A stretch of 64,000 bases of DNA from Bolinopsis microptera. Taxonomy: Eukaryota; Ctenophora; Tentaculata; Lobata; Bolinopsidae. Location: NCBI RefSeq assembly GCF_026151205.1, contig NC_087072.1, positions 2,685,375 through 2,749,374 of the forward strand, in the 5' to 3' direction. Within the stretch, counting starts at the first letter, position 1. Every line of letters begins with the position of its first letter. The notes under the pieces are model-generated. The model was given only the letters and a program-made list of their open reading frames with translations, was not told the DNA's origin and did not search any database. Both the position numbers and the translations under genes were made by a program. Positions 4,575 through 64,000 of the stretch are shown here, one piece after another.

Positions 4575-4840
4575 ACCAAAGGCATATCTACGAATTATCA
4601 AAATACCTGATGTTCGAAAAAGTCTGACAAGGTTTCGTATCAGCTGCCACAACCTCTACATCGAAAGGGGCATATGCGAAGCCCCCTTGTACCAAGAGAA
4701 GAACGTTGGTGCACCTACTGCTTTTTCAGCAAAGGGCTCAAGCCTATTGAGGACGAAAGTCACGTATTGATTGACTGTTTGCTCTACTCATCAGTTAGGG
4801 AAAAATTCAATTTCCATCCCCAAAACATTACTTAAATTAT
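4575..4840 (+). pseudogene. relic C-terminus of a non-LTR reverse transcriptase
   Basis: Conceptual translation, with one frame change near 4700, gives the usual post-RT segment: an arginine-rich LTRFRIS...IERG stretch, then a CTYC pair, then EDESHV-x4-C-x2-Y-x4-R. This C-x2-C ... H-x4-C arrangement is the C-terminal Cys/His motif of many non-LTR retrotransposons. The ORF2 at 55013-58660 ends with a similar motif. Frames are broken and nothing upstream is preserved, so it is a dead fragment. The lineage cannot be assigned. Confidence 0.65.
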
Positions 4841-6318: not shown

Positions 6319-6839
6319 TAAAAGGGAAAAAATTCAAAAAATTCAACCCATTCCCTAAATTGAAATTTGAAGTAAAATGGGTTTTTGGGATTGGACACCC
6401 TCCTTAGTACCATGTACTAACTGTTTTTCGAGGAAATGAGCAGCAGACCCAACATTTAGTACAAAAGTACTAACTGTGTTTTGAAAGAAAAAGTGACCCA
6501 CCACCCCAACGTCACGTCCAGTACTGATTGCATGATCCCCGGTTTTATACAACATTTCATACTCAAGCTTAAGTAGAATACCTCCTATAGCTATCGTTGA
6601 GGCAACCAGCCACCGCATTTTACGGTCCTGAAACAAATTTGAAACAAATATTTTACGAGTATCACCTGTTAAACATTCATAAGATCGGTACAAAATCATG
6701 CTCCAACATTTAAAAAAAATTATTCTTTTTTTCAACACTGCTAAACAGCAAAAAATGCTTGCCCACAAACAGAGCCAGGGCGCAATTGTGATGAGAGAGT
6801 ATTTGTCAATGAAAAAGCTCTAGAAGAAGTACATGACTT
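6319..6839. other. gene-less stretch between two retroelement relics
   Basis: No supported coding content. Minus-strand open frames here have low-complexity, non-protein-like composition. The upstream (RT) part of the element that ended at 6318 is not recognisable. Confidence 0.5.
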
Positions 6840-23039: not shown

Positions 23040-23599
23040 ATTTTAGGCCATATGTTCATTGTTCATTGATAACTTCTATATAAACATGCATAAGCAGCTT
23101 CGTTTAAGCCAAATCTGAAGTCTCTACGATCTTCAGAAGCAAAGGACAGTTGCATCATTGGGTCAACATGGGCGTGGCTCTCCTGAGCGTTGCCGGTTGC
23201 CCATGGTAAAAATGGGACTCCAAACGGAAATCATTCATTCATACCATAAGGGACGTTTGTGCAAAGTTTCAGGAGTATCTGAAGATTTGCAGGTACTTAC
23301 CCAATATTCAATAATGTCCATAAATGACTAAAAAGGATTCTGCGAAATTTATGAGCACACCAAACACTAAACAAAATCTGCTCTATTTAAGGGTTACGAT
23401 TTTGGTTAATGTCAGGGCTGGAGTAGGATCTATCAGCTTTAGGGGAGATAGTTACCGACACCGTATGAAACGATTTGACGATTTTAAAATAAAAGAACTT
23501 CAAAGACTGCTCTCTAAAGGAAATTATATATGAACAAAATTTCCAGGAAAAATGTCAATTTACTGAGTCGATTAACAGCACTGATTAAACCCCCTGCAG

Positions 23600-23872
<273 letters not shown>

Positions 23873-24520
23873 CAGACCAAAGGCCGCACAGTTTATCCGA
23901 GCAGCTTTGTACCTGCCTAGGTTGATCATTAAAGTGTTCAACTACAGTTTCTCATCACTAAACATTTTACCTGATAGTCATTATTTAAATGATATCTGAA
24001 AGTGAGGTACAATGAAACGCTACTTTAATTGTAAATCGTAACTAAAATGCTCAACAAATATATGAAAAATACAATCTAGAATCACACACACACTATTTCA
24101 GTCAACCTAAAGTCTAAGAGCCAAGCTGAAGACTTTAGACCCATTTAGGATTGCAATTTGCAAAGTCAAACTATCAACGATAAGTAGGGACTTAAGAACT
24201 ATTAAAAATCGCCCTTGCCGTAAATGGCGTAATTTTGTGCAGTCGTTGAGTAAAGTAAAAAGGTATACAAACTATAAATCATTAAGATGGAAATTCAACC
24301 ATTTATATACAAGAGGAGGTCAGGAGGGTGGCTTGTCTGTAACCTGGCACGGTTGGACAGCACACAAAGTGATGGTAAACATGAGCAGCGATTCTCTCCC
24401 CTCTAGCTAAAACTCAACCAGCTAACTAATTTTATATACTCTAGCTTAATATCTCCAAATACCATATAAAGCAGAAGCGCACCAGACAACATAACTGGAC
24501 TATAAGCTCTAAAAATATTG

Positions 24521-24757
24521 TCATCTAGCGACAGTTGTCGAGTCTACTGGTTTCCTGCGCTGGGTCTTAGGAACGGAGTCCAGTTGGGGTCGGGTGACGG
24601 TGGTGCGGGTTGTCTGACTGCGGGAGCTGGTACCCGCACTGGATCTGTTGACCTGTGCAAGGCCGGGCTGACTCCGTGCCAGAACAACAGATTGGACAGT
24701 TCGCCGTGTTGCGGGAAGTGGTAGTGGAGGCTTGTAAGTGATAGGACTAACCCCTTT
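24521..24757 (-). CDS. candidate basic Ser/Thr/Arg-rich terminal exon, copy 1
   Basis: This copy of the exon at 26630-26866 keeps the same open frame and the same stop, with few replacements. It reads as a proline stretch (PPLPLP), then RRTVQS, then a TSSRSQTTRTTVTRP-like stretch, then KPVDSTTVAR and stop. The function is not recognised. See the second copy for context. It could be a spare exon with no transcript. Confidence 0.4.
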   Translation of the reverse strand, partial: KGVSPITYKPPLPLPATRRTVQSVVLARSQPGLAQVNRSSAGTSSRSQTTRTTVTRPQLDSVPKTQRRKPVDSTTVAR

Positions 24758-25542
24758 CTTGGGATGGAGAAAAACATTCTGGGAAAAAGGTGTTGTAGTG
24801 TTTGCTGGTGCTACTCTGGGGGGGAGAGAAGGGGTTAAGTTCAGTTAAATAGTTTCCAAGGGGGTTTTTTTTTTAATTATTGGCAAGGGGGAATAAGTTT
24901 TAGTGGGACAGCAAGGGTCTGTAATTATAAAATTTTAAAAAAAAATTTTTATTTAAAATTTTTTGCGAGGTAAATAATAACTAAAAAAAAGCTCCGATTT
25001 TATATTTTGAAAATTCGTTTAAAGATTAAGATATTGTGGTTAAATCTTACTTCCGAGAGGTGGACAGTTCTGTTTCACGAGCTTTTTGTGAGTTATAATT
25101 TCTTATCATTATAAATAAACCGTTATATAACTAGTTTAGAATCTAAAATGTTCATTTTCAGTTTTACTTCTATATAAAATCATAAGCACTTGTTTAAGCC
25201 AAATCTGAAGTCACTAACGTCTTCAAGAGCAAGGACAGTGAAATCTTTTTAATGACTATATTTTTATAGTCACAGAAGGATTCTGCGAAATTTATGAGCA
25301 CACCAAACACTAAACAAAATCTGCTCTATTTAAGGGTTACGATTTTGGTTAATGTCAGGGCTGGAGTAGGATCTTTTAGCTTTAGGGGAGCTAGTTACCG
25401 ACACCGTATGAAACGATTTGACGATTTTAAAGTAAAACAACTTCAAAGACTGCTCTCTAAAGGAAACTATATATGAACAAAATTTCCAGGAAAAATGTCA
25501 ATTTACTGAGTCGATTAACAGCACTGATCTAAACCCCCTGCA

Positions 25543-25989
<447 letters not shown>

Positions 25990-26629
25990 CCCTGCAGACC
26001 AAAGGCCGCACAGTTTATCCGAGCAGCTTTGTACCTGCCTACTAGGTTGATCATTAAAGTGTTCAACTACAGTTTCTCATCACTAAACATTTTACCTGAT
26101 AGTCATTATTTAAATGATATCTGAAAGTGAGGTACAATGAAACGCTACTTTAATTGTAAATCGTAACTAAAATGCTCAACAAATATATGAAAAATACAAT
26201 CTAGAATCACACACACACTATTTCAGTCAACCTAAAGTCTAAGAGCCAAGCTGAAGACTTTAGACCCATTTAGGATTGCAATTTGCAAAGTCAAACTATC
26301 AACGATAAGTAGGGACTTAAGAACTATTAAAAATCGCCCTTGCCGTAAATGGCGTAATTTTGTGCAGTCGTTGAGTAAAGTAAAAAGGTATACAAACCAT
26401 AAATCATTAAGATGGAAATTTATATACAAGAGGAGGGTGGCGTGTCTGTAACCTGGCACGGTTGGACAGCACACAAAGTGATGGTAAACATGAGCAGCGA
26501 TTCTCTCCCCTCTTGCTAAAACTCAACCAGCTAACTAATTTTATATACTCTAGCTTAATATCTCCAAATACCATATAAAGCAGAAGCGCACCAGACAACA
26601 TAACTGGACTATAAGCTCTAAAAATATTG

Positions 26630-26866
26630 TCATCTAGCGACAGTTGTCGAGTCTACTGGTTTCCTGCGCTGATTCTTAGGAACGGAGTCCAGTTGGGGTC
26701 GGGTGACGGTGGTGCGGGTTGTCTGACTGCGGGAGCTGGTACCCGCACTGGATCTGGTGACCTGTGCAAGGCCGGGCTGACTCCGTGCCAGAACAACAGA
26801 TTGGACAGTTCGCCGTGTTGCGGGAAGGGGTAGTGGAGGCTTGTAAGTGATAGGACTAACTCCTTT
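26630..26866 (-). CDS. candidate basic Ser/Thr/Arg-rich terminal exon, copy 2
   Basis: The open frame follows a pyrimidine-rich gtttctccatcccaag acceptor-like site and ends in TGA at 26630. It is proline-rich at the start, then Arg/Thr/Ser-rich and strongly basic, resembling the TTLL4 terminal exon at 31627-32211 in composition. Inference: an alternative 3' exon of that gene or the end of a separate downstream gene. The last confirmed TTLL4 exon already has its own stop, so linkage is unproven. The plus strand is also open here but has a less protein-like composition. Confidence 0.45.
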   Translation of the reverse strand, partial: KGVSPITYKPPLPLPATRRTVQSVVLARSQPGLAQVTRSSAGTSSRSQTTRTTVTRPQLDSVPKNQRRKPVDSTTVAR

Positions 26867-37600: not shown

Positions 37601-40600
37601 GTGTTTAATTATGAAACTGCACACGTTTATCTTAATGACACACTACATGTGACAGTGTTAGTGTAACTAGCGCAGTCTAATAAAAGTACAACAAAAAGAC
37701 AGCACATAGAAACGTAGATGTACGTTTCTATGTATGTATAGTGTATACATTTGGAACGTACATACATTTGGAACGTACATACATTTGGAACGTACATACA
37801 TTTGGAACGTACATACATTTGGATCGTACATACATTTGGGACAAATTCTTTACATTATTCTTTACATTTTGCAAAACAGTTTTTACTCACCTCTATGATC
37901 CAGGGTTTCAGATGCTGATCAAGAAATATGTCAAATCCGAACAGTTCATGACATGTATGTCGGTATTTGCAATGACTCTTGGATAGACTCGTTACAGTGG
38001 GAACTGAGGCTATGATCGTTTTAACAACAATGTTCTTTATTTTAGCTTTTATCCCTTCGACATCCTGTCCCGCCACTTGTAAATATTTCCACAGAGCTTT
38101 CAAACCCCTGGAAATAGGAATATTTGATGAGTAAAAATAAAATGGAGGTTCAGTTTCTCGATATTTAAATTAACAGTGACTGCTACATCTTGATATCTGA
38201 CAAGGAGCATTAAAGGTACATGATCGAGCTGCTGCCCTTTCGTCAGGTGGAATTTTCAATTCATTTGTGTTCATCAGACAAGCTGTCACAAAAATGAAAA
38301 TGTAATGAATGAAAAACGGTGATTGCATCTGACATTGTGACCAAATACTGCCACTTACTTAATAGATAATGAACAAAATATGCTGGCGTGAATACTTTTG
38401 AACTACATATTCAGACCCCTGTCACGTCAATCAATAGCAGGTTTTAAAAACAGTTCAGACATTGAAAAGCATTCCAAAGAAAAACCATTTTAAAACCACT
38501 AAATATCTAAATTTGAACATTACTTCATCCCCGTTGAGACAATGACTATGAAAAACACACAAAGGTTTCTTACCACTTGTGACTTTCAGTTCCGGTCTCA
38601 TCCTCATTTTTGATGTAAGCATCGTTGAACTTGTTGACACTGTAGTTGGTGAGATGAACATACCGGTTAGACAGTGACTTGCTCGAATGTGAGTATCTGA
38701 AATGTTAATGTAACAAATTCCACAAATGTTGTGGCTTACAAATAGGTTACACCCAAAGTGATGACACACGAATCAACAAAAAGGAGGTATATTATCCTGT
38801 ATATATTCTACACTTCTGCCCTGATAGATGCATTGATGATTTAATTTCGTAATGGTATATATTACAATATGAGATAGCATGAATGTAATGCCATAGTATA
38901 TCACTATTTATGTAACTTAATAAGGGAAGTATAACTGCGCAATGCTGCAGCTCATTTCGGTCAAAATTAGTGGCAGTATCGAGATAGCCCGACCACTGGT
39001 CCGCGGACCACTGTCTGCGGACCACTGTCCGCGGACCACTGTCTACCAGATCATATTACTGTATAATAACAGTATCCCCTGAATCAAGCAGGGTTCACAT
39101 GACCCTGTAGCATCTTCTGATGCCGGAGGTCTTGCTAACTCCTCTGCTCATGCTCCTCGTGTCCGCTCCAAATGTAACAACTGCGTTGTTATGAATGTCC
39201 ACCGAGAATCTTCAGTCCTCGATGGGATCCTACATTCTACTACAAAAAAGATAACAAAGCTTTGTCCTGAGCATCAACTCCCGGACTCCATTCCACCAAC
39301 TCCTCAAGACACGATAGATAGAGCTCTTTAGGAGGTTTTTCTGGAATAGGAAGTCTCGAGCATTCTCTAGGGAGGCGGTGGGTCCATTAATTTCGTCCAT
39401 TAGACAGAAGAGTACCATGTCAGGAATTGGAATAGTTGTTGTTGTTGATGATGGCAACTGATAATACTTCACCAAAAACGAACGACTTATATACCACATT
39501 TTAATCGTAATCATTTATTTCATTGAGCAATCAATATTATTCGTAACTAATTATTTCCGAGAGACCACATTTGAATCGTAATCAATAGTTTGATCCAGTA
39601 ATTTACTACGCTACAATTAATTATGCTAGTCGTAACTAATTGCATCCAAGATACCATACATACCATTCATATGATCTGGTAACCAATCAACTATTCACAA
39701 ACACCTGTTGCTTGATTCAGGGGATACTGTTATTATACAGTAATATGATCTGGTAGACAGTGGTCCGCAGACAGTGGTCCGCAGACAGTGGTCCGCGGAC
39801 CAGTGGTCGGGCTATCTCGATACTGCCAAATTAGTGAGAGTGGTTTCCAATTACTATTTGTTAATGACCCAATGCTCAGATCTACATTCGTCGTGGAACT
39901 AATCAAAATCCGCATCTTTGGATGTTCAAATATACAATCTCTGTAACAAATCTGTCTATTAACATCCTCCAAAATAATGATGATGTGATGCATTGATTTG
40001 TGGCCGTCAATCGTCAGTAACCAAACTGCCCATTTTATAAGCCAACTATTGGTTCTTTCTTATCTTCAATCTTATCTCAGAAACAATAGAAATGTATGCG
40101 GAGTGTACGTGACGACGAGAGCTGAGAAACACTAAAAGTAGTTCTGCAGATGTCGACGGAACTGCACCTCAACCGAGCCCTGAACTTACTTGGAACTGGC
40201 GAATCTAACAAGTCCGTTATCGTACATGTAAATACACAGCGGGTCGTAGGATGACACGTACACGTATATCCTCAGGTCGAACTTTCTGCCGTTTATAAGA
40301 TACGGACTGGCCAGATATCTCTGGATTATTATGTTTCGTTTCCTTGGTATCTGGTTCAGTTTGTGGATGACTTTGATACCAATACCACGTGCAGATGCAG
40401 GCTGAAAACAAGGTCTGTTAGAGTCGGGGAGTGTGTAGTGATAAAATATGACAAAATGTGAATCAAATACAGTAGCTGTCAGCTCTTGTATTTCAGCTCT
40501 TGTATTTCAGCTATTATATCGTTAGCTGATGCAATGTTCTAGATCCATCGACAATATTGCGTGGCTATAAGACAAACTGCTATAGAAGTTTTAAGGGTTA

Positions 40601-51196: not shown

Positions 51197-51397
51197 CCCA
51201 TACAATCTTCATATTTGTCTGATGTAATGATGGGTATTGGGTTAAGCATAATACCAGTTTAGAGTTACTATAATCAAGGATTTGTTTTAATTCAAACTTT
51301 TCAGTGAGGCCCTTATCTGAGCTGATTCCAAAATATTCAAACTTATTATAATTCTTAAGGGTACGGGGGTAAAATTGACCAGCAATAGTAATAGTTA

Positions 51398-52005
51398 AGG
51401 GGGCCGGGGGGGGGGGTCTTCATCAAAATTCTCTCGAAATCAACTTTATAGTTGTTTCTGATAGAGGGGAGTGATATCTATCAGATGCTTTTGGTCCCAT
51501 GGAAAAATATTGTTCCTAGCCGAAATTATCGCCGGTCTAAGGTCAGCGCTTATGTGTAATTGTATTGCGCGAGCGATTTTCAATCGCAAATTCTGAAAAT
51601 CGAGTCTAAAAATCTATCTTCTCTCACATCAAAAAATCGTAAAAAAACGAGGTCCAAGATTTTCAAAATTGAATAAAAGATTTTTAAAGGCCTATCTCAA
51701 AATTTTGTATGATCATTCTCTTCTAAATGGTCCCTAGAACATATCCTGAAAGTTTCGGGGTGATTGCTCAAAAAATGTGGGAGAAGATAGATTTTTATAC
51801 TCGATTTTCAGAATTTGCGATTGAAAATCGCTCGCGCAATACAATTACACATAAGCGCTGACCTTAGACCGGCGATAATTTCGGCTAGGAACAATATTTT
51901 CCATGGGATCAAAAGCATCTGATAGATATCACTCCCCTCTATCAGAAACAACTATAAAGTTGATTTCGAGATAATTTTGATGAAGACCCCCCCCCCCGGC
52001 CCCCT
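51398..52005. mobile_element. Mutator-like (MULE) foldback element, 608 bp
   Basis: Two arms of about 240 bp (51398-about 51640 and about 51765-52005) are nearly perfect inverted repeats. They start agggggcc followed by exactly eleven G (eleven C in the other arm). The flanks are an exact 9-bp duplication taatagtta (51389-51397 and 52006-52014). Long inverted repeats plus a 9-bp duplication are the MULE signature. The centre (~120 bp) has no gene. The alternative reading is a TTAA duplication (piggyBac-like), because ttaa also borders both ends. Confidence 0.85.
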
Positions 52006-52084
52006 TAATAGTTAATAGTACTATGTTTACAGCACTGAAGGGGTATCCTAGGAAGTTTCTTAAACTTTTAACAGGTACCCCTCC

Positions 52085-52265
52085 TCATTTAACCCTCAAT
52101 TAAGTTTCCTATCATTCGGCTGAGTCGACCGAGGAGATCACATAGATCCAATGGATCCTTAGCTACTCCCTAGACTAGGTGACACTGGGATTCAAACCCT
52201 GAACCTTCTGCGCAGAAGGCGGATGCTCTAACCACTAGGCCACCTAGCCCCTAGCCACCTTGCCA
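52085..52265 (-). repeat. tRNA-derived SINE (tRNA-like head at 52177-52245)
   Basis: Read on the minus strand, 52245-52177 has a 7-bp acceptor-like pairing (aggtggc with gtcacct, one G:T), an A box (tagtggttagagc), a hairpin ccttctgcgcagaagg in the anticodon position with a 6-base loop, and a B box (gggtttgaatcc). The odd loop makes it tRNA-like rather than a working tRNA. The body toward 52085 continues with gtcgactcagccgaatg. Confidence 0.75.
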
Positions 52266-52329: not shown

Positions 52330-53670
52330 AAAATCAAATAAATTAAATGACAGTCGATAACTCAATACATCGTTCAATAGACAATGTGCCTGTCCACTCA
52401 CAATAAAATGTATCAAGTTGAAATCACGTTTAGGTCAATATCTTGAAGCTATGGGGCAGCTGTTATCAACTGAACGTAAATTATAGTTTGAATGGTTCTA
52501 GTCAATAGAGCTTCAATATTTACACAATATGTATGTGTGCCTGATTCGATGGGGAATGGATGTACATGGGGTTCCCGGAGGCTGGTACTGCATATAATGC
52601 CAATAACTTGGGTTGTGGTCACATTGTAACACAGTATCAAATCTTATTGTTTTAATCTATAATTTCATAATATGAAGTCAAATCGAGGGTCCAACCAAAA
52701 AGGGTTTTAGTGAATGTCCCCTTAAATCTTGGTCACTAAGAAAAAGTAGTTTAGCACCTCAACCACAAGCTTGTTTAGGCAGTCTAATTTTGCAGGCGTG
52801 TAGGAAGGGGTCAAAAGCAGTAGGGCCACTTTTGGTAGGGCTACTTTTATCAATCCCCCTAAATTTCAGAGGGGGAAATATCTTCCCTCTTGATTGGACA
52901 TTGATTATAGAATTTTCAAATTAAGTTAAACTGGTTGTTCAGAGTGCTTAGTGGAATGTGCTTGATCCACTTGAAGCTGGCCTGCTTGCGTGCACAAAAG
53001 AGATATGCAACGTGTATCAAGAAAGTGCCTCTTGGAAGTTAACACCAGAACCAGCTTATATAACTTTTTGCACGACAGTCGCAATTTTGCAGTAAAATTT
53101 AGCATCAAGGCTAGAATTCATTCGAAAACCTTTTTCTAAAATTTTCCCAGGTTATCCCTTTTTGTATGCATTTCTTCAAAAAAATGTTGACATCGCCCAA
53201 CCTCTAAATTGGCCCAACATAATCTCACTGGTCTCATTCAAGCTTTTAGCCACAACCCCTTGCTTGGAATGAACAGATTACAGGATTTGGATTTTCAAAA
53301 ATTTTATTATTAGAGAAAATATGTGATGAGAGCCATTGTATACAAATCTTTAATAAGACCACAATATCTAGAGCATTGTGTTCAATTATGTAATCCAGTT
53401 GCGGCTCGTGGAAGTTGGGGGATCATTTTGGAGCCGGAGAGCGCCCAGAGGTGGGTACTCTCCCATACAGCCGTCGACTGGAAATCCTCAATTTGACAAC
53501 ACTGGCAGAGCAGCGAATATAATACGTGGCAAATATAATAAGTGGTGATCTTATCGAAGTTTTACTGAACTATTATTGGTTTGGACGATTATGGAGCGGG
53601 TTTGTTTGGATGAGCAGATCCTTGTAGGTTTAAATCCTACCAGGACGCGCGCCGAGTATGGAATAATTGT
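52330..53670. other. gene-less stretch
   Basis: No exon-like frames with splice sites. Short frames on the minus strand (52449-52640, 52926-53108) have no recognisable composition. Confidence 0.5.
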
Positions 53671-53769
53671 CATACGTTGTATGACCCGCCGCGCACGAGT
53701 GCGCGGCTCCCCCTGTATCGTCGAAACTCTACTATAGTGAAGCGACCGTGGGGGTCACCACGTGATACA
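53671..53769 (+). repeat. GC-rich hairpin repeat, copy 2
   Basis: Begins catacgttgtatg, continues with the gccgcgcac / gtgcgcggc stem, ccctgtatcgtcg, gaccgtgggggtcacc, and ends cgtgataca. About 600 bp later a third copy follows in the same orientation. Confidence 0.8.
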
Positions 53770-54264
53770 ATGGAATAACGAGTATCACCCGTTAAGGTAT
53801 TTGCTATACTTGAGATAAAAGTGAAACAAATTTTAGTGAAACAAATTTAAAATTTGATCCTTTATTTTACAATCATAATATAATAATATTTATAAGCCTC
53901 TGTTTTGAAAGTTTTAAATTTCAATATATCCGCATTTCTATTTAAAGTTCAATTTTATGTATAAGTCAATAACTGGCCGTCGCAAAGCCGTGCATTAAAA
54001 ACAGGATTAAATTGTTTATAGTTATACAACAACTTAAATTTAAAACTATCCGTGCACCGTGGTTTTTTGAATAAAAAAGCAAGCATGAAGCAACAAGTTT
54101 GGAGGACTTCGCCGCTTCGACGCGCCGCGCAAACTAGCATTCTTGCTTCGCATCGTCGATCGTTGCTTTGCCTCGCAAAGCAACGATCTCGATGGGTTGA
54201 CATCGTCAATCAAGCAACAAGTAATAAATTAGCAAGCGAAAGCTAGGTAATTAATCATTTGACA

Positions 54265-54600
54265 CACGTTGTAGTTGTAGCGCGAGATGCGCTACTGTGC
54301 CGCGCCGAGCTGCCATGAATTGCCATCGTCAATTAAACGTTGTAGTTGTCATACGTTGTATGACCCGCCGCGCACGAAGTGCGCGGCTCCCCTGTATCGT
54401 CAGGACGATACTATAGTGAAACGACCGTGGGGGTCGCAACGTTATACAACGTTAATTGTAGCGCGATGCGTTACTGTGCCGCACCGCGCACTCAATGAGG
54501 CTTCTCACGGCGAGATGCGCTACTATGCCGCACCGAGCTGAGATGAATTGACATCCAACATCGTCAATTAACACACACGTCGAGCGTGTTGTATATTCAA
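54265..54600 (+). repeat. GC-rich repeat cluster flanking the retrotransposon, with hairpin copy 3 at 54350-54452
   Basis: A gttgtagttgtagcgcgag-atgcgctactgtgccgcgccgagctg block at 54265-54312 recurs inverted at about 63150-63230 beyond the other end of the retrotransposon. The hairpin repeat (copy 3) lies between. Part of the block recurs again at 54458-54545. Confidence 0.7.
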
Positions 54601-54801
54601 TATTGACGGATGTGACTCGTCTAAATTTCTTCGAAGTAGCGCGCGCCACTTTCGTCTCGAAATGTTGCCCGATGGCAATGCAAGTGTTACGAAGTAGCGC
54701 GCGCTGGGCCAGACCATTAACAATGGTTAAGTTGTATACCTCGTTTTGTGCGCGGCGGCCAAAAGGCTTTTCTTTTTTATAAAAAATGAGCAATGAGGTG
54801 T

Positions 54802-54846
54802 AGGTTTACAAGGTTTACAAGGTTTACAAGGTTTACAAGGTTTACA
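54802..54846 (-). repeat. (gtaaacctt)5 array at the presumed retrotransposon 3' end
   Basis: Five perfect 9-bp units downstream of the ORF2 stop. CR1-like elements end in short tandem repeats rather than poly(A), so this is a reasonable 3' terminus. Confidence 0.8.
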
Positions 54847-55012
54847 AAAAATAGATCTATATTACAGTGAGATAATGTCAGATCAGCATAGCTAAAGGTC
54901 AAAGTCCGAAATCCAAATAGAAAATCCGTTACCATTAAGATGATTGATGAGTGTAAAGAAAAAGTGAAAATGAAGGGGCTGTGGAGGAAATGTGATATCC
55001 CGTACTGAGACA

Positions 55013-58000
55013 CTAATGTTCGTGTTTCTTCTTTATAGGGAATCGTGTTCTGCATAGCTGAGCGACGAACTTGGTGAATTCCACTATGTGCTCCGGTAGA
55101 AAGAGGCTCTTCATGTCATGAAATAGTAATGACTTTGTGGGCTCCTTCATGTTAGTCCTACTGGAATGGTACCTGGGACATGTTCTAAGGAAGTGTTCTT
55201 CATCTTCTATTATCGGATCAACACAAGGAAGATTAACAAAGAGCTCCATCATTGACTTTTCGCTGCAGAATTCACAAATTCTGTGATGTTGACTTCCAGT
55301 TCTGCTCCCATATCTTCCAGTTTCTACGTTTAGCTTATGTCCGCTCATTCGGATCCTAGCCACTAAGTTGCTTCCAGTTCTCGACGGTAGCGTGAGGTAC
55401 GGCTCCTGCTCGAAAGCACCTTTAACTTTATTATAGAACGTAAGCTTCTTATTGCTTTGTCTTTCTGTTTCCCATAGATTGATAAATCGGTTATGTGCCC
55501 TTTCCTGACATAACAATGGGTTGTATAGTTGATGTTCAAGTTTGTTCTCGTCGAGTATCGTTAGCATTGATTCCAGTGCTCTGAACCAACCTAAATCAAG
55601 TTTCTTCTGCTCAGCAAAAGCGTGCCTGGCTAGAGCTGGTGAGTCTTCTAGTTCAAGTCTTGCAAGGCGATTATGGAAATCGGTGACTTGTTTAACATAT
55701 CGAACTACAATAGGGGTTCTTCCGCAGTCTCCCCAAACAGCTGCGTTAGATGTCGATTTGCCAACTCCAAGGGTCCATTTAAGGATGGCGAGGTGCATTC
55801 TTTCGAATGGGTCAGCTGCAATGCCTGCCAGTGGGGATTGCTTCGTATTGTCAGTTGTGCTGGCAAAAGCCTTAATTCCTGAGCTACTGCTGATCCAGAC
55901 TTCCACTCCGTACGATACAACTGGCAGTATGAGGGAGTCGAGCAGTTTAAGAACTGCGACCTTGGATATATTGTTAAGGTCGACTTCACTTTTCAGTCCA
56001 AAGTATGCCCGGAGAGCTTTTTGTCGCAGAAGGTTTAGTGCTGTCTTAAAGCTGCCCGACAGTGAGAAGGTGATCCCTAAATAGCAATATGTTTTTGCTG
56101 ATGGGATTGTTGCTCCCATGTACTGAAAACCGTAACTCTCTTTGAGTTGCCTTCCACTTTTATTAAAAATCATGATGGCGGTTTTCTTGGTGTTCACCGT
56201 GAGCCCCCATTCTCTGCAGAATGACTCAAGTTCAGAGATCATGACCTGAAGACTTTCTTTCGAAAGTGCGAGGAGGACAAGATCATCTGCCCACAAGAGG
56301 TGGGTCAGAATAGTTTCATTCAGCATTGGACTTGAGATGTCTTGAACACTGTTCAGTCGTTCCGAAAGTTCGTGGATGTAAGTTTTGAAAAGTTCGGGGC
56401 TCATTGGGTGGCCCTGCTCCGTGCCTGCAAGAATATCAAATGAGTCTGATATTTTAGCGATCAGCTTGATCTTAGCTTTGGAATTCTTGTACATATGTTC
56501 TAGACATTTTAGGAATTTTCCATCTATACCAAGGGTTGAGAGCTTGTACAGAAGAGCTTCACGACTGATGGAGTCGAAAGCTTTGCGAAAATCCACGAAA
56601 CAAGAATAGAGTCTTTGTCCTTTGTTATTCACGTATTTGTCTACACAAGTGGAAAGGGTGAACAGATGATCCACAGTTCTAGCATTCTTACAGAAGCCAA
56701 GCTGGTTTACTGTGTCCGGGCAATGTTCCTTCCTGAATTTTAGCAAACGGTCCAATAGGATTGTCGCGAAAAGTTTACCAAGGTTGCTCCCGATCGCAAT
56801 GGCTCTGTAGTTATCGGGGTCGTAGATACATCCTTTCTTGTGGAGTGGGCTCACAATCGTAGTGTTCCATGGGTAGACACCAAGGTCCAAGCAACCATTA
56901 AAGAGCTTAACTAACACTGAGAGAGCGCAGTGGTTCTGGGCGGCAGACTTAAGCTGCTCATTGAGTAAACAATCTAGTCCAACTGCCTTACCGTTCTTAA
57001 GTGTTTTCACCGCATGTACAACCTCTTTCGATGATATCTCATCATTTAGTATGCTCATTATTTGTTCATTTGCTTTAGTCACTGTTCTATTCTGTGGGAA
57101 GTTTGTATCCTTCTTTTTGTAGAGATCCAGAAAGAATTGGTAGAACTTCGCCATGTCGAATATGTCCAGCTTGGAGGGTTTTTCGTTAAACTTCTTCAGT
57201 TTCTTCAAGTTCTTCCACGAAATCTTATTTTCCTGCAGAATTTCCTGGTTTAACTCTTGGAAGAAAACAGCCTTTTTCCTTTTTAACAATTTTTTATAGT
57301 CCTTCTTCCTAGAGTAGAAGCGGATTCGTAGAAGGGCGTCCGAGGGGTTTTTCCCGTACTTCTTTGTTAGAATATTAAGCTCTCGCTTAGTTGTAATGCA
57401 CTCAGCATCGAACCACTTTTGTTTTGGGCGGAGTTTACTGCGTCGTTTCTTTTTAGAAAAACACCTTATCTTTTGCTCACTATTGGCACAGTTTGAGGGT
57501 TGATCGGTGCAAAGTGCGCTTTCAAGAATGTGAACGAACTTCTCGTTTGTGGAGTAAATGTTTTCTGCAGAATCAAAGGTTGAGGTCGAAATATCCAATA
57601 GCTGTTTTGTTATTTCGGCCTTGTTAAGATTATCAGTAAACTGTTGGGCCGTTGCATCTCCATCCCATTTCGGTCTTTTAGGTGCATCTTGATGAAGCTC
57701 TTGAATTAATTCAGCGGCTATCATTTGGATTCTAACTGAGAGTTGACAGAGGATAGGTCTGTGATCTGATAGGTTAGTTAAGGAAAGAACTTTGAACCGT
57801 TTCACCATATTCCTGATGCTCGGTGAAACTGCTATGTAGTCAACGACACTTTGTCCGTTGTACTGATAGCAGGTGAGCTCACCAAAAATGTCACCAATGA
57901 CATTGCCGTTCAATAGAGTGAGATCACAGCTGCCCAGAAGGTCAAGGAATCTATTACCTCTTTCATTTAGTACAGAATCTTTACTGGCTCGGCAAGGTCT

Positions 58001-58660
58001 GGGTGCATTCGATTTCTTCTTTTTCATCCAGTCTTTTGTCACTGGGATGAAGTTGACACCACCTGTACGAGCATTTAGGTCACCTACTAGCATGATGTCA
58101 GAGTGACCAAGTTGCTCTCCGATAAAGTGGAGAAGAGCTTCAAGAGTATTCTCCTCAACTCCAAGACTCTTCATCCTGACTTTATAAGAGGAATTTTCGG
58201 GTGAGTCGTATATGTTTATCAGAGTGATGTTCTTTTCGGCCTTTGTGTACGTTTTCGAAATGGATACTGCTTGGATGTCTGTTGAACCTGTTTCGATTTG
58301 GGTAATGTACTTTTCGAGCGACCGTTGAACACCGATGCATAGGCCTCCTGATCTTGAGGATACCCTGTTTTTGTTAAAGCAGCGGTAGTTGGGCACCACT
58401 ACTTCTCCTTTTGTTTCTTGTAGACAAAATATCGGTGACATCTCGATGATCTCACGAAACTCATCAATCTCGGTCTTGTTTCCTAGTGAGTGGTGAGATA
58501 TGTTATTGATGTTCCATGACACAACTGAGAGGTCCTGATCATGGTTTTGTGCTGCGGTGTGGGATAGTTCATCAACTTTACTGCTATTGTCTCTCTGCAG
58601 TTTTCCCACAATTACGCTCCCTGTATTATTCATTATGATCGTTGCTTCGGGTGAACTCAT
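55013..58660 (-). CDS. retrotransposon ORF2: AP endonuclease and reverse transcriptase
   Basis: 1215 aa. Residues about 45-310 form the APE-type endonuclease, with the expected residues SWNIN (48-52), LQETK (80-84), LVGDLNARTG (191-200) and SDHRP (298-302). The reverse transcriptase spans about 530-880: GKAVGLD, then motif A FVDFRKAFD (near 688), EQGHPMSPELF (motif B) and LLWADDLVLLA (motif C, near 788). The C-terminus has CEFC ... EDEEHFLRTC-x-RY (from about 1129), a C-x2-C ... H-x4-C motif. All catalytic positions are present. The first ATG (58660) overlaps the end of ORF1 by 35 nt; a second ATG at 58633 forms ATGAATAA with the ORF1 stop. Expected role: target nicking and target-primed reverse transcription. 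Confidence 0.97.
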   Translation of the reverse strand: MSSPEATIIMNNTGSVIVGKLQRDNSSKVDELSHTAAQNHDQDLSVVSWNINNISHHSLGNKTEIDEFREIIEMSPIFCLQETKGEVVVPNYRCFNKNRVSSRSGGLCIGVQRSLEKYITQIETGSTDIQAVSISKTYTKAEKNITLINIYDSPENSSYKVRMKSLGVEENTLEALLHFIGEQLGHSDIMLVGDLNARTGGVNFIPVTKDWMKKKKSNAPRPCRASKDSVLNERGNRFLDLLGSCDLTLLNGNVIGDIFGELTCYQYNGQSVVDYIAVSPSIRNMVKRFKVLSLTNLSDHRPILCQLSVRIQMIAAELIQELHQDAPKRPKWDGDATAQQFTDNLNKAEITKQLLDISTSTFDSAENIYSTNEKFVHILESALCTDQPSNCANSEQKIRCFSKKKRRSKLRPKQKWFDAECITTKRELNILTKKYGKNPSDALLRIRFYSRKKDYKKLLKRKKAVFFQELNQEILQENKISWKNLKKLKKFNEKPSKLDIFDMAKFYQFFLDLYKKKDTNFPQNRTVTKANEQIMSILNDEISSKEVVHAVKTLKNGKAVGLDCLLNEQLKSAAQNHCALSVLVKLFNGCLDLGVYPWNTTIVSPLHKKGCIYDPDNYRAIAIGSNLGKLFATILLDRLLKFRKEHCPDTVNQLGFCKNARTVDHLFTLSTCVDKYVNNKGQRLYSCFVDFRKAFDSISREALLYKLSTLGIDGKFLKCLEHMYKNSKAKIKLIAKISDSFDILAGTEQGHPMSPELFKTYIHELSERLNSVQDISSPMLNETILTHLLWADDLVLLALSKESLQVMISELESFCREWGLTVNTKKTAIMIFNKSGRQLKESYGFQYMGATIPSAKTYCYLGITFSLSGSFKTALNLLRQKALRAYFGLKSEVDLNNISKVAVLKLLDSLILPVVSYGVEVWISSSSGIKAFASTTDNTKQSPLAGIAADPFERMHLAILKWTLGVGKSTSNAAVWGDCGRTPIVVRYVKQVTDFHNRLARLELEDSPALARHAFAEQKKLDLGWFRALESMLTILDENKLEHQLYNPLLCQERAHNRFINLWETERQSNKKLTFYNKVKGAFEQEPYLTLPSRTGSNLVARIRMSGHKLNVETGRYGSRTGSQHHRICEFCSEKSMMELFVNLPCVDPIIEDEEHFLRTCPRYHSSRTNMKEPTKSLLFHDMKSLFLPEHIVEFTKFVAQLCRTRFPIKKKHEH

Positions 58661-61600
58661 GTAAAGTTTGCCTAGTTAGGGTTGACGTTCTATTAAGGGC
58701 ATCTCGGCATCTGAGCCATAGTTTAGCTAAACCTTTGGGCGAAAGTCTCAGTGCTTCACCGTCTTTTGTAACATATCTCTCCAAGTAGCCGCTGAGGTTG
58801 TCATTACCGACTGTGCATATTCGGTCTTCATAGTAGTTCTCTTCTCTGAGCCATTTTATAAAGTCACCCATATATTGGTTGGCAGCTTGAATCCTTGTGT
58901 TGAGGTTAGGGTTACCTGGTGTTGGTATTATGAGCGAGTAACATATCTTGCAATTGGTTTCTTCTAAGGCCAATCGAAGGATACTTTTAAAGTTTCTTAT
59001 GAAAGTGGGGAACGTTAGCCCCCTCTTGATGTCATTTATTCCCAAGTGAATAAAGATTATCTCAGGGTTGAAGCTTTTGATTTCGGATATGAGCTTCCGT
59101 TTTTCCACTAAGTCACTAACTGAGCTGTATTGCACTTTTTTAATATCATAACTTCTGGAGAATTTTCGCTGGTCGAAGTCTTCATGGTAAGAATCATGCA
59201 CTAGGAGTACTTTCTTTTTTCTTTGATACTCGTGACTTGACTTTGTGAGTGATGCTTGTTGTGGTTTATGAGTTACTTCGGGAGATGCTTCATGCAAATT
59301 CCCTTCAGCCTCGCCTGGAGGTTGGTCAATTATCGACGCCGTAGGTTCCGCATTAGCCTCTATTATCTCCGAGTACAACGTGGTAGATGATGAGCACTTA
59401 TGAATGGTTTCATCGTGATTTGACTCAACTTCCTTTGATATCGCCTTTTCTTTATCTCTAGTTGACCTTAAGAGTTGTTGCAGACAATTGATGGTATCAT
59501 TTTGATTTGGCTCACAAGTAAAGTCGCTTAGCTGATCCATTATCATCTTTTCTTTATCTTTAACTGACTCTATAAGTTGTTGCAGGCCAAAGGTGATTCT
59601 TTCAATGTCATGAGCAGATGGTTCCTCCATATCGGCTGTTTCATTTGCACCGTTCAGAGAATGAGGGATCATTTCTTCGGTTTGAGTTGCAATCTCGTAC
59701 ACAGTTGTTTCTGTCTGGGCGCAACTATCCGTCGTCGACGGACTTGTAGATAAACTGTTTCTTAGGGTTTCTGTCTGGACGCCGATATCCACTGTAAATG
59801 GACCAGTTTCTTCATGGGTTAAAATTTCATTTGTTACAGTTTCTCGTTGAGAGTCGGCATCCTGTGAGCGGCAGATGGTTGCTGTTTTAAGGGGACTATT
59901 CATTTTTAAATCTCGGCTTTTTTCTGCATCACAGTGACAAGAGCAGAGGACAGGCTTTGGAGAGATGTTAACCAAGGACTCCAACCTATCAACCGTTTGG
60001 GCTATTGAGTTAAATTTATTCAGGGTCTCTTCAGAGCACCGTTGACTATCCGTATTTAGCGCTTTGATACTGATGAATAGGGTCTTATCATTTTCTTCCA
60101 GAAGGTGGAAGCGTTCAGCGATTTCAGTGTTGTTTTTAAGTGGGTTTTGTATTATGGCATCCATCTTCTTCGATAGTGCTGCAACCATACTTTCTTGCTT
60201 TAATAACCGATCATCTAGCTTCAGCATACAATTTTCCAGCGTTTTTAGGGGGCTTTCTACAACGCTTAGTATTGTTGCGTTAATATCATGAGGCTCAGGT
60301 GTTTGCTTAATTATGGTTGTCTTTATTCCCGGGCCAGGTTGTGCACAGACCGGTTCTGTACTAGTATAGTCGTCTTTGTGGTTCTGGCCCAACTTCGTCT
60401 TTCCTTTCTTCCCATGTTTCCCCTTCTTAGCATTTTTGTTTTTGACCGGGCTTTTATTGGCACCGTATAGATCAATGAACAGACCTGTGAGCTTGTTCTT
60501 TCTCTTTTCAGGCGTTCCGGCGATAGATGCACCTCGAGCGCTAAGTTCTTTCACTACTGCATCGTCTGTCAGGTATACGATCAGTTCTTTGATAACTTTC
60601 GGGTGAAGGGCATATCTATCACTTGTAACACTGTTTTGCAACGGAGAGTTACTTGATGCCACATTGCCCAGGTACTCAATGAAATACACTCGGCTCCAGT
60701 CTGCCGTTTTGTTGTAACATTTTATGTTGCACTCTTTTAGCCAACCTTTAACCACGGCCCCGTTCCTTAATCTGACAACTTCTTCGTGGGCGTTGTTTTG
60801 TAAGAATGGGGTCGGAATGGTAATGTTTGTAATCTTACTGTTATTATCATTACTGCCAGGTAAAGAGTCAGATTGCGGAGGGTTACCAACTCCTGCTGTT
60901 TCCTGCTCTGTCTCCTCCGGCAGATTGGTCACCTCTACCTTACCCATCTTAAGTTCGTCATTGACATGTTTCTCATTTGGGGCCACAGCAATCTCAGCAA
61001 CACTTCCCTCTCCTTTATTCGTTTCTGTTTCTGTATTGACTGCGATACCAACATTTGAAGAACGTTCTTGGGCGAGATATCCATCTTCATCATCTCTGTC
61101 GTTGGGTACATTGACATCATTTTCTGAAATAGAGTCAGTTTCAGAGTGATTCATAATTCCAACTTTTTCTGTTCCAGAGTCCTCTGGTTCTTGATCGCAT
61201 GAATCGTACTCACTGTCAGAGTCGGCATGATCAGGAACTGAGAGTTTCTTCTCGTGAAAAGGTTCAGAGTCTGTCTTCTTTTCTTCATCTTCTGTTGTGA
61301 CGTTCTTGCTATTTTCAGCTATCACACACTTTTTGTTGTCTTCCGCCATTGTTTCTTCTTGATGGCATGTGGTCTCCTTCCCCTGATCGTCACTGGCATC
61401 ATGTATTTTTCCATCTTCAACAACTACGCAATTTTGACAAGACCGTGACAAATTGCAGCCTTCATCACTGTTGCATGGAATGATAACTATGTGGTAATCA
61501 GGTATATGCATTTCAAACTTCCTTTCGGGAGCAAAACTTGGTATCATAGTTGCCCGAGTTTTCGAAGATATAGTTAAGAACGACCAGTTTCTCATTTCGA

Positions 61601-63098
61601 CATCATAGACGTTGAGTGATAAGCGGGCAGCACGTTTAGGTAGCAGGTCGAGTCCCCTGCTCCTACCGATATGCAAGATTCCAAGCGGGTAGCAATTATC
61701 ATCATCTAGTTTCATTCGTTTTGCTCTGTTCGACATGCTGGTGATTTTTAGACCGTTAAAGTTCTGATTGCATGATGTTGTGCGGGACATGTGACGGTTT
61801 ATTTGACCGAGCAGATAGAGGAGAGACTTTTGTTCGATCAGGTCACGTGGATGTTCGTCCAGTGAACTGATTCGTGTTACTCGATCAACCTCCTCTCGGC
61901 AGAACGTTATGGTAACTGTCGGGTTTGAGTTGTCAATCTGCATTAGGTCAGTTGACAGAGCTCTTTCCACCGCTTTAGAAATATTGCTCATATTCAAGCG
62001 GAATGGGTTATTCATGTTCAGTAAATCATTTTCCAAATGTATACCGGCACCGTCGGTGCCACAGTCGTGAGTGCCACTTTCCCTTATTCTAGTGCATCCA
62101 ACACCTCCCTGTGAAAAGGAGAGATTATGTGAATCATTTGAGGAAATCGTAGTGGTGGCTGGTTCAGAGTTATGTCTCATCCTCGCGACTGGTGTTTCAT
62201 TGAAAGCCGCGGATCTTTCGAGAGCAATCTTTTCTTTGAGTCTTCGTTTCAAAAGAGCTGTTGGGGTTGGTTTGTGGTACGGATCACGTCTGTATGAGCT
62301 CTCAGATTTGGAGCGTGACCTGCTTTTGAAATTCGTCCTCACTGGGGATGTGTAGTCCAGTTCGACATGTTTCCTCGGGGGTGTTCCTCTACTTTTTGGT
62401 ACTTTCGAGGTCGGTGTCAGGTAAAGGGGGGAGGGTGAAGGACTGCCTGCAGGTTCTGATTTATCATCATCATCATATTCAGTTTCCTGAGAAATATCAG
62501 ATAGATATGAGATGTCTCCGATAGTGTTCCCAACTGAGATGTTCAGGTTAACAGTGGTGTTGACTTGAGTGGCGTTAAACCCACTCACGTTACGTGCGAT
62601 GTCCCATACTCTGGAAATGCCTCTAACGATTGACATATCTCTGATATTAATGAAGTTTACCGAACCTTGATTGATATAGGTAGAATTAACAGGTAGTGGT
62701 AAAGGAGTCCACTGATCTCTTTTATCGTGAAGGTCGTTTGTCAAATCTACTTTTAAACTGTCATCATTTTTATCGATTCCTTCCTTCATTAATTCGGTTG
62801 AAGTAGGGCAAGGGGCTACTGCATCGTTTTCGCACTGCGTTTTCAGCTTCTCCCGTCTAAATCCCTCGTCTTCATCGTCTCCTCCATCACCATTTGATGA
62901 CGAGTTGCTATTGTTAATAGCAGAGCGCGGTCGCAGGGGCCTCCTTCCGGATATAGATGAGTTCCTCCCTGCAGATGTTGATTCTTTCGTTGAGTTGTTG
63001 GCACTGTTCTTGTCTCTTTCCTCATTTTCGATGACAGCAGCAACTAGGGGTAAAAAGAATATTAGTTTAAGCAGTTCAACATTTATTGAGTTTTGCAA
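58626..63098 (-). CDS. retrotransposon ORF1, 1490 aa, SGNH-esterase-like C-terminus
   Basis: Unusually long for an ORF1. The N-terminal ~400 residues are Ser/Asn-rich and disordered. An unrecognised ordered-looking region follows near 470-560 (GILHIGRSRGLDLLPKRAAR, then a second conserved-looking stretch), and then a long acidic linker. Near 840-870 there is a SAP-like helix-turn (ELSARGASIAGTPEKRKNK), then a Lys-rich tract (KKGKHGKKGK), then heptad-rich coiled coil about 945-1055. An SGNH/GDSL-like domain fills about 1294-1480: VLLVHDSYH (block I Ser), HLGINDI (block III G-x-N-D) and LSPKG (block V). The block V position that normally holds His is Arg (ALRLSPKG). Known: CR1-type ORF1 proteins carry esterase domains. 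Inferred: RNA-binding/multimerising chaperone. The hydrophobic first 20 residues are probably not a signal peptide (see finding on a splice-like site). Confidence 0.9.
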   Translation of the reverse strand: MQNSINVELLKLIFFLPLVAAVIENEERDKNSANNSTKESTSAGRNSSISGRRPLRPRSAINNSNSSSNGDGGDDEDEGFRREKLKTQCENDAVAPCPTSTELMKEGIDKNDDSLKVDLTNDLHDKRDQWTPLPLPVNSTYINQGSVNFINIRDMSIVRGISRVWDIARNVSGFNATQVNTTVNLNISVGNTIGDISYLSDISQETEYDDDDKSEPAGSPSPSPLYLTPTSKVPKSRGTPPRKHVELDYTSPVRTNFKSRSRSKSESSYRRDPYHKPTPTALLKRRLKEKIALERSAAFNETPVARMRHNSEPATTTISSNDSHNLSFSQGGVGCTRIRESGTHDCGTDGAGIHLENDLLNMNNPFRLNMSNISKAVERALSTDLMQIDNSNPTVTITFCREEVDRVTRISSLDEHPRDLIEQKSLLYLLGQINRHMSRTTSCNQNFNGLKITSMSNRAKRMKLDDDNCYPLGILHIGRSRGLDLLPKRAARLSLNVYDVEMRNWSFLTISSKTRATMIPSFAPERKFEMHIPDYHIVIIPCNSDEGCNLSRSCQNCVVVEDGKIHDASDDQGKETTCHQEETMAEDNKKCVIAENSKNVTTEDEEKKTDSEPFHEKKLSVPDHADSDSEYDSCDQEPEDSGTEKVGIMNHSETDSISENDVNVPNDRDDEDGYLAQERSSNVGIAVNTETETNKGEGSVAEIAVAPNEKHVNDELKMGKVEVTNLPEETEQETAGVGNPPQSDSLPGSNDNNSKITNITIPTPFLQNNAHEEVVRLRNGAVVKGWLKECNIKCYNKTADWSRVYFIEYLGNVASSNSPLQNSVTSDRYALHPKVIKELIVYLTDDAVVKELSARGASIAGTPEKRKNKLTGLFIDLYGANKSPVKNKNAKKGKHGKKGKTKLGQNHKDDYTSTEPVCAQPGPGIKTTIIKQTPEPHDINATILSVVESPLKTLENCMLKLDDRLLKQESMVAALSKKMDAIIQNPLKNNTEIAERFHLLEENDKTLFISIKALNTDSQRCSEETLNKFNSIAQTVDRLESLVNISPKPVLCSCHCDAEKSRDLKMNSPLKTATICRSQDADSQRETVTNEILTHEETGPFTVDIGVQTETLRNSLSTSPSTTDSCAQTETTVYEIATQTEEMIPHSLNGANETADMEEPSAHDIERITFGLQQLIESVKDKEKMIMDQLSDFTCEPNQNDTINCLQQLLRSTRDKEKAISKEVESNHDETIHKCSSSTTLYSEIIEANAEPTASIIDQPPGEAEGNLHEASPEVTHKPQQASLTKSSHEYQRKKKVLLVHDSYHEDFDQRKFSRSYDIKKVQYSSVSDLVEKRKLISEIKSFNPEIIFIHLGINDIKRGLTFPTFIRNFKSILRLALEETNCKICYSLIIPTPGNPNLNTRIQAANQYMGDFIKWLREENYYEDRICTVGNDNLSGYLERYVTKDGEALRLSPKGLAKLWLRCRDALNRTSTLTRQTLHEFTRSNDHNE

Positions 63099-63149
63099 GA
63101 TATCCGAAGTGTATGGTGTAGCAACTAATCATCAAACATCATATTACAT

Positions 63150-64000
63150 TAATTGACGATATCAATTCATCTCAGCTCCGGCGCGGCACAGTATGACAGT
63201 AGCGCATCTCGCTACAACATATTACACTTCAAATTTAACGGATGATTCTTATAAAATAATTGATAATTGTTTTTTCATATGACGGATTATACTCCATACT
63301 CGTCTAAATTTTTCCGAAGTAGTGCGGGCGCGCGCCGCTTTTTCGAGGCAAGTGCTACAAAGCTCAAAAACAATTAAATAATTTGATTCACGATGTCAAT
63401 CCTTCGCAGCTCGGTGAGGCACATAGGTGCATTTCGCCGATCTACCGGTTGCGAGAAGCATGATTTGATGCGCTCGCGACCCAGTAGTGCATCGCGCTAC
63501 AATTAAATAATTAGTCTTAAAACACAAGCTACTTGCCAGTGATTTAGTTTTATGGGAACCTACGCACGGTAGAGCACAGCAAGGCCGACCAAGACAAAGC
63601 TACTTGTCTATGTTACTGAAGGAAGTTGGGACAAACTCTAAAGAGGAACTGCGAACCCTGATGCCAGATGCGGGACAGGGATATATGGAGGGGGTTTTCT
63701 GGCGTAGATCGGACTTAGCAGTAGCTCCGACATAGTAGTAGTAGTAGTAGTTAAAACACAAAACACGGGTTTGATTGAAAAACCCACTTTGCACTTTCCG
63801 GTATTCACATTCGGAATCATACTATGGGGGCTGGAACTGAGACTTAATAATAGTATCTAGGGATCCATCGGTCACAGCTGCTGCACCAAGAACTTCTCTG
63901 AATCGACTCCAGGCAAGATAATCATAAGGATCATTACACTAAAATATACATCCCAATCGATGCTAAATAATTCAGAATTCAAGCCCCTAAAATTACCTTT
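63150..64000. other. repeat-rich flank beyond the retrotransposon
   Basis: 63150-63230 is the inverted counterpart of 54265-54330. 63299-63356 is a direct counterpart of 54608-54660 (cgtctaaattt..tc.gaagtag). A short (tag)n microsatellite lies at 63732-63751. No gene was supported to the window end. Confidence 0.6.

Follow-up and report, generated by a model that had tools for sequence, protein, structure and literature searches.

The role of the esterase fold carried by the first open reading frame (ORF1) of some long interspersed nuclear elements (LINEs) is a standing question, and a locus in Bolinopsis microptera puts it in a particular form: can such a fold be kept in an element when its catalytic residues are not? 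The stretch analysed (the window: 64,000 nt of NC_087072.1, to whose positions all coordinates refer) contains on its minus strand a non-long-terminal-repeat (non-LTR) retrotransposon in which a 1490-codon ORF1 ends in an SGNH-type domain with a degenerate active site. We consider it likely that this element belongs to a LINE lineage, CR1/L2-like by anatomy, whose esterase-type ORF1 became a large, probably non-enzymatic scaffold.

The C-terminal domain of ORF1 has an SGNH-type fold

The ORF1 reading frame is real. Chance frames in 200 first-order Markov simulations of this 8.1 kb segment reached 243 codons at most, and the coordinates assigned by an initial annotation, made from the sequence alone, are correct. 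ORF2 encodes an apurinic/apyrimidinic endonuclease (APE; Pfam Exo_endo_phos_2, 1.3e-7) and a reverse transcriptase (RVT_1, 3e-29), and by sequence matches R2 and LINE-1 proteins in the PDB. Together with dispersed copies that have a common 3' end, many of them 5'-truncated, this makes the element an APE-type non-LTR retrotransposon, that is, a LINE.

An SGNH-like domain at the end of ORF1 had been proposed in the initial annotation and is supported by three lines of evidence. The domain scores 30.6 bits (E 6e-7) with the Pfam model Lipase_GDSL_2, narrowly missing the cutoff of 32.9, and eight of ten aligned members from this and related elements reach E 1 or better with it. AlphaFold2, run on the single sequence of residues 1288–1490, gave a model of moderate quality (predicted local distance difference test, pLDDT, 64.7; predicted TM-score, pTM, 0.66). 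When this model was searched with Foldseek, 61 PDB chains were found at E 0.001 or better, and the 50 listed were mostly SGNH hydrolases (4rsh at 1e-5, TesA at ~1e-4), so that a fold search that might have shown no SGNH fold returned members of it. Finally, a profile of the ten domains could be aligned with the esterase of ZfL2-1 ORF1p (4c1b) across the HVG block and the VS strand, at an E-value of 0.019. Matches to a viral structure library were also headed by GDSL lipases. On the basis of the Pfam, structural and profile evidence, the C-terminal domain is an SGNH-type fold. It has the architecture of a type IV ORF1, in that the domain is preceded by a coiled coil, albeit one scoring only slightly above shuffled sequences, and no RRM family is among the Pfam hits.

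The active site is degenerate throughout the window family

A search of the same genome (264.65 Mb in 232 contigs, of which C1–C13, at 15–26 Mb each and ~258 Mb in sum, suggest 13 chromosomes) gave 40 ORF1 matches, with 31 of 356 candidates scored; all counts are therefore lower bounds. At least 15 matches belong to the same family as the window copy (94–100% identity, window included), some of them being pieces of one copy, and at least 25, at 16 places, are distant relatives of 25–40% identity.

The window copy keeps the Ser (S1303, within LLVHDS) and the G-x-N-D block (G1353, N1355, D1356), and in block V Arg1451 replaces the catalytic His, all as first annotated. The further substitution reported at that time, His for the block I Gly, is present in the window copy (H1301) but is not a family character, the position being variable with His in two and Tyr in six of eight other copies. 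Arg1451 was found in all eight other copies that cover it, collected to establish whether the Arg is fixed, and its codon lies three substitutions away from any His codon, so the objection that it is a private mutation fails. No His occurs between residues 1430 and 1476 of the window copy. There is also no Gly anywhere in 1304–1352, a point missing from the earlier description, which means that the block II oxyanion Gly has been lost as well. S1303, N1355, H1351, S1388 and R1451 are each unchanged in 8/8 other copies. S1303 and N1355 are separated by 52 residues, with H1351 at N-4 and S1388 at N+33, and the equivalent residues of ZfL2-1 (S143, N195, H191 and S228) have identical spacings.

Related groups lack further catalytic residues and share a fold core

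The distant relatives were sorted by eye into six groups: B (L020, L021, L022, L023, L025, L028), C (L026, L027, L030), D (L024), E (L029, L032), F (L031, L033, L034) and G (L036, L037). L025 was compared by tblastn only and L021 was omitted from alignment A1; the SGNH part of L029 contains one stop, and L032 represents group E. The SGNH parts of these groups are 27–41% identical to that of the window copy. At the position of the catalytic Ser they have Ala (B, G), Asp (C, D), His (E) or Cys (F), and at that of the Asn they have Gly (B), Gln (C, D), Glu (E), Thr (F) or Leu (G). No His is present in the Arg1451 column of B, C, D, E or G, while F is not assessable because its match ends before block V. 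Across the seven groups, window family included, the Ser is found in 1/7, the Asn in 1/7 and the block V His in 0/6. Neither the catalytic Ser-Asp-His and oxyanion Gly/Asn of an SGNH enzyme nor the conserved type IV active site (S, G, N, D, H) is therefore seen in full. The equivalent of H191, which together with S228 was described as transposon-specific by Schneider et al. (PMC3905857), is present in 7/7 groups and that of S228 in 6/7, with Thr in F. Twelve columns, including D1302, H1351 and G1353, are invariant in the ten aligned SGNH sequences. Since related groups have lost the Ser and Asn too, the idea of an inactive esterase, raised as a possibility in the initial annotation, is stronger than that annotation could know, and the fold probably serves in binding, not as an enzyme.

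The alternative of an esterase that is still active through an altered site, with Ser1303 acting together with another base and either Asp1446 or Glu1448, while the substitutions shift specificity only, appears very unlikely to us. It would fit the conservation of Ser1303, Asn1355 and Asp1446 in 8/8 other window-family copies, and the double mutation H191F/S228A abolishes ZfL2-1 activity (PMC3905857), both positions being kept here. However, such an enzyme would have to work without a His in 1430–1476 or a Gly in 1304–1352, its relatives in the other six groups have neither the Ser nor the Asn, and ZfL2-1 itself is inactivated by H282S as well as by mutation of S143 (PMC3905857).

Conservation of the SGNH domain is seen between groups

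Selection was counted on five gap-free copies of the eight covering the SGNH domain (L014 extends only to residue 1315). Compared with the window copy, the ORF1s of the family show 88 non-synonymous and 43 synonymous differences, a ratio of 0.60. By region, the ratio is 0.24 for residues 104–340, 0.50 for 341–565, 0.18 for 781–945, 1.03 for 946–1100 and 1.42 for the linker 1101–1290. For the SGNH domain it is 0.69 in the window family (12 non-synonymous to 5 synonymous), 0.68 in B (55 to 25) and 0.45 in C (6 to 4), and these within-group counts mix in neutral changes that followed insertion. Constraint is thus clear for parts of ORF1 and, by within-group count, weak for the SGNH part, so that the case for this domain rests on conservation between groups.

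These values bear on whether the domain is a decaying relic that is carried along in ORF1 without selection. The within-group ratios do indicate weak recent constraint, next to a linker at 1.42, and the similarity of group F ends before block V. Nevertheless we regard a relic as improbable: groups only 27–41% identical hold a common pattern with its 12 invariant columns, decay would not preserve the same non-catalytic residues, and the within-group counts include the neutral post-insertion changes.

Several observations weigh against a non-enzymatic scaffold, beginning with that weak constraint within groups. The window family retains the Ser, Asn and Asp1446 in 8/8 other copies, and the retained H191 and S228 equivalents can be read as a sign of catalysis, given the inactivity of the ZfL2-1 double mutant. 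In groups C, D and G the Asp1446 column, five residues before the expected place, is occupied by a His that could be serving as the base, though the Ser is absent there. As to the fold, the AlphaFold2 model is moderate, the top Foldseek matches were designed scaffolds, accompanied by other Rossmann-like folds, and when hhalign was used to compare the family profile with E. coli TesA, only the block III stretch aligned (probability 1.9%, P 0.026). Lastly, docking to membrane, to RNA and to protein are indistinguishable from the present data.

A proposed scaffold and its possible link to LC8

In the non-enzymatic scaffold that we favour, ORF1p would self-associate through its coiled coil and bind the element RNA by its basic tracts, with the conserved N-terminal domain contributing a further function of its own. 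The SGNH fold might provide a docking surface for negatively charged membranes, by analogy with ZfL2-1, in which active-site mutants, and likewise H191F/S228A, still bind liposomes (PMC3905857). Alternatively it might dock RNA or protein, as the inactive OSK domain of Oskar does. A bolder version, which we put forward only tentatively, is that these are active LINEs whose ORF1 esterase turned into a pseudoenzyme, keeping the fold core and losing catalysis, that ORF1 with its N-terminal domain became a giant Gag-like scaffold, and that some groups have an array recruiting LC8 for microtubule transport or dimerisation. Catalysis would then not explain why LINEs hold on to this fold.

This last element derives from three QTE motifs located between the coiled coil and the SGNH domain, the first two of which are kept in 8/8 copies and the third in 7/8 at the positions checked. 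Recruitment of the dynein light chain LC8 through them, leading to dimerisation or tying the ribonucleoprotein to microtubule transport, is compatible with a scaffold role, and we treat it as a possibility that is rather less likely than its opposite. Motif 1 (VDIGVQTE) is similar to VSRGTQTE, the evolved LC8 consensus, and has a coiled coil next to it, an arrangement described for EML3 (PMC3078936). Three [TVIAG]QT[ED] matches within 40 residues never arose in 20,000 whole-protein shuffles; for two strict [TVI]Q[TV][DE] cores in the same span the count was 12 of 20,000, and for three [TVIA]QT[DE] in shuffles of residues 1080–1160 it was 0 of 20,000. Group C carries ETQTT, SCQTD and ETQTI in the corresponding position. 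LC8 is bound by foamy virus Gag (PMC3705263), and it dimerises Panoramix via such motifs (PMC7861614). On the other hand, the search pattern was picked after the sequence had been seen, QT pairs are not above composition in the linker (754 of 5000 shuffles reach the count) or enriched in the other five groups tested, and the TQT triplets of C are reached by 166 of 5000 shuffles. No comparable array is present in B, D, E or F, leaving C alone among the groups examined (B to F). Of the papers listed in literature searches on this point, none, judged by title and abstract opening, concerns LC8 binding by a LINE ORF1p. Elsewhere in the window, a 242-codon open frame (5605–6333, minus strand) with no Pfam match at E 0.1 also contains a DVQTEP motif.

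Organisation of the element and of ORF1

Features of the element. Coordinates are window positions; residues are those of ORF1.
Feature	Position	Strand	Basis
Retrotransposon copy, 5'-truncated	54802..63103	-	alignment with same-family copies
ORF1, 1490 open codons in this copy, first Met codon at residue 104	58626..63098	-	
ORF2, 1215 aa, APE-type endonuclease and reverse transcriptase	55013..58660	-	Pfam, PDB sequence search
ORF1/ORF2 overlap, 35 bases, different frames	58626..58660	-	
3'-terminal 9-bp repeat, 5.1 perfect copies	54802..54847	-	
Conserved N-terminal domain, residues 391-554, holds most of 470-560	61437..61928	-	six-sequence alignment
Acidic linker, probably disordered, residues 566-780	60759..61403	-	charge, hydropathy
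SAP-like stretch, residues 841-870	60489..60578	-	block conserved among six aligned ORF1s
Lys-rich tract, ~residues 886-925	60324..60443	-	sequence; Lys-rich in 5/6 aligned ORF1s
Coiled-coil-like region, residues 946-1045, strongest 951-985	59964..60263	-	heptad score
Three QTE motifs VDIGVQTE, TDSCAQTE, YEIATQTE, residues 1103-1141	59676..59792	-	resemble LC8-binding sites
SGNH-fold domain, residues 1291-1475, degenerate active site	58674..59228	-	
Block V equivalent DGEALRLSPKG, Arg1451 at expected catalytic His	58731..58763	-	

Contrary to the initial annotation, the element is not intact. Alignments with same-family copies (identity ~98–99.6%) start at 63103 in L010, L012, L014 and L016 and reach 54802–54810 in L010, L011, L015 and L016. 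Upstream of 63103 the four copies that start there have a common sequence that is absent from the window copy, which is therefore 5'-truncated at this point. L012 and L013 (G000:C13:11799703-11814688) are apparently two parts of one copy, with ~10 kb of other sequence between them at residue 144. The 9-bp repeat terminates three other copies (L010, L011, L015) with different flanks. A candidate target-site duplication, CTACACC (63121 and 54803), was dropped because it does not abut the element edge at 63103. Short repeats, mostly inverted, flank the element on both sides (53658–54646 and 63149–63506), marking a repeat-rich site.

The ORF1 frame opens with TTG, and Met is first encoded at residue 104. 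Coding probably starts upstream of this Met, because the alignments of some distant relatives begin at about residue 29 and the codon-usage signal starts at ~63050. The frame stays open for 305–327 codons upstream in L010, L014 and L016, roughly 290 of them common, and over the last 288 three pairwise comparisons gave 26 non-synonymous and 2 synonymous differences, with no sign of protein constraint. A splice-acceptor-like run lies at ~63051 in all five 5' ends compared. At the other end of ORF1, ORF2-frame ATGs are present at 58660 and 58633, the latter within ATGAATAA together with the ORF1 stop, and the overlap suggests that ORF2 might be reached by ribosome reinitiation at ATGAATAA.

Within ORF1, residues 391–554 can be aligned across five groups (window family, B, C, E, F; six sequences in all), the others being 30–34% identical to the window copy. 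The annotation had called 470–560 ordered-looking but unrecognised; most of this region does fall within a conserved domain with no informative Pfam or PDB match, while AlphaFold2 of 462–575 was uninformative about its fold (pLDDT 48.7). For 391–554, two of four members had Pfam matches, all below cutoff (best E 0.0087), and a PDB profile search gave nothing better than E 0.7. Two assignments were tried. That 470–560 is a second degenerate SGNH half-domain (ILHIGRS, IIPCNSD) is not supported, since the pairwise score is reached by 24% of shuffles and the fold model is uninformative; hhalign of the two family profiles gave 0.8% for a tandem SGNH, a weak negative because against TesA the method yields no more than 1.9% with the SGNH profile and 3.9% with the single domain. 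As an AlkB-like 2-oxoglutarate-Fe dioxygenase, an assignment suggested by a consensus and likewise not supported, 391–554 gave 0.2% in hhalign with E. coli AlkB and no such Pfam or PDB hit, in a test whose power is low, given that it also fails for SGNH against TesA.

Net charge over residues 560–800 is -33. The SAP-like motif of the initial annotation survives as a stretch conserved between groups, but residues 780–915 have no Pfam match up to E 10, and the DNA-binding role read into its helix stays hypothetical. The Lys-rich tract is evident in the sequence, as described. For the coiled coil, heptad windows at ~951–985 (1.24) and 1198–1230 (1.21) exceed the maximum in 20 whole-protein shuffles (1.19), but on a home-made score and by a slight margin. 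A coiled-coil start of PLKxLExxxLKL type is common to relatives, and the SAP-like stretch, the Lys-rich tract and the PLKxLE start are common to most of the six aligned ORF1s. The description of ORF1 as giant extends to 9/16 distant loci, with stop-to-stop frames of 1215–2331 codons, the long ones possibly including flank, but not to the other 7/16 (262–756).

A corresponding search with ORF2 gave 38 matches, with 38 of 6069 candidates scored, these numbers again being lower bounds. At least 17 are 89–100% identical, window included, and at least 21 are relatives of 46–50% identity with frames of 1183–1282 aa without stops. Such ORF2s directly follow ORF1s of B (C8:552779 after L025), C (C4:2510289 after L027) and G (C1:5222742 after L036), and one lies beside L032 of E (C6:11513669), so that long open ORF2s adjoin relatives from four of the six further groups; for D and F, no adjoining ORF2 is among the matches listed. 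One locus beside an ORF2 of ~47% identity, L038 (G000:C4:16273000-16274600), has no SGNH match and is either truncated or has a different ORF1. Near-identical copies within groups suggest recent insertion. No relatives outside this genome were found in scans of viral_contigs or genome_contigs, which, as viral and prokaryotic collections, carry little weight. Anatomy, rather than tree placement, suggests a CR1/L2-like element, the short tandem 3' repeat and the domain order being features that we take to point that way.

Other features of the window

A CFAP58 exon lies at 11179–11592 on the plus strand (PF21771, 6.8e-43), and coiled-coil frames at 9159–10263 may be more exons. A fragment resembling the ORF2 C-terminus of another LINE is found at 4537–4799 (plus strand; tblastn pieces, E 0.01). 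Large near-perfect inverted repeats (94–99% complementary) occupy 51381–52022 and 38971–39828, and a ~2.1 kb tandem duplication surrounds long CT/GA runs at 23333–26730. An Rfam tRNA match of 30.9 bits at 52177–52249 (minus strand), where ARAGORN reports none, is perhaps a tRNA-derived short interspersed nuclear element.

Comparison with known systems

The closest point of reference is the zebrafish ZfL2-1 ORF1p (4c1a/4c1b), which also has a coiled coil, a basic tract and a C-terminal SGNH domain and shares the S-H-N-S spacings and the core His and Ser. Unlike ZfL2-1, whose esterase (residues 135–302) is active (PMC3905857), the window family has lost the catalytic His and oxyanion Gly and the other groups the Ser and Asn too; in addition, the order of coiled coil and basic tract is reversed, and ORF1 is several times longer, with an extra conserved domain. 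Active as its esterase is, ZfL2-1 ORF1p is dispensable in HeLa cells (PMC3905857). More broadly, an SGNH-type domain ahead of an APE-reverse transcriptase ORF2 is shared with type IV (esterase) ORF1s (PMC4120745, PMC3905857), but these have a strongly conserved active site (PMC3905857), which here is degenerate. Type IV ORF1s are placed only in two vertebrate subgroups in a set of 448 elements (PMC4120745) and across many animal phyla in PMC3905857.

Outside the LINEs, the OSK domain of Oskar is an inactive SGNH-like domain that co-elutes with mRNA (PMC12247748), though Oskar is not a transposon protein. Pfam OSK matches occur in three of the ten SGNH members (best E 0.028) and are far below cutoff, so the likeness is one of analogy, not membership. 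The nearest precedent is provided by the GDSL derivatives of Athena-L, bdelloid retroelements with GDSL-like domains described as lacking catalytic residues (PMC5408684). They belong to a different retroelement type and are grouped with PC-esterases, apart from which the non-LTR esterases cluster (PMC5408684).

Whether this ORF1 was already catalogued thus has a divided answer: the esterase (type IV) ORF1 is a known kind, while a non-LTR lineage with a catalytically dead ORF1 esterase is described in none of the papers that the literature searches listed, nor in the available parts of PMC4120745 and PMC11203168. To judge from sequence, the element is of a known kind and has a novel form of ORF1, with the SGNH fold kept and catalysis apparently lost in seven groups of one genome. 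By its size and its shared N-terminal domain, ORF1 also extends the spectrum of architectures described for such proteins. The groups that have the transposon-specific core without the catalytic residues are natural elements in which fold and catalysis come apart, and they thereby make the binding roles, whether to membrane, RNA or protein, directly testable.

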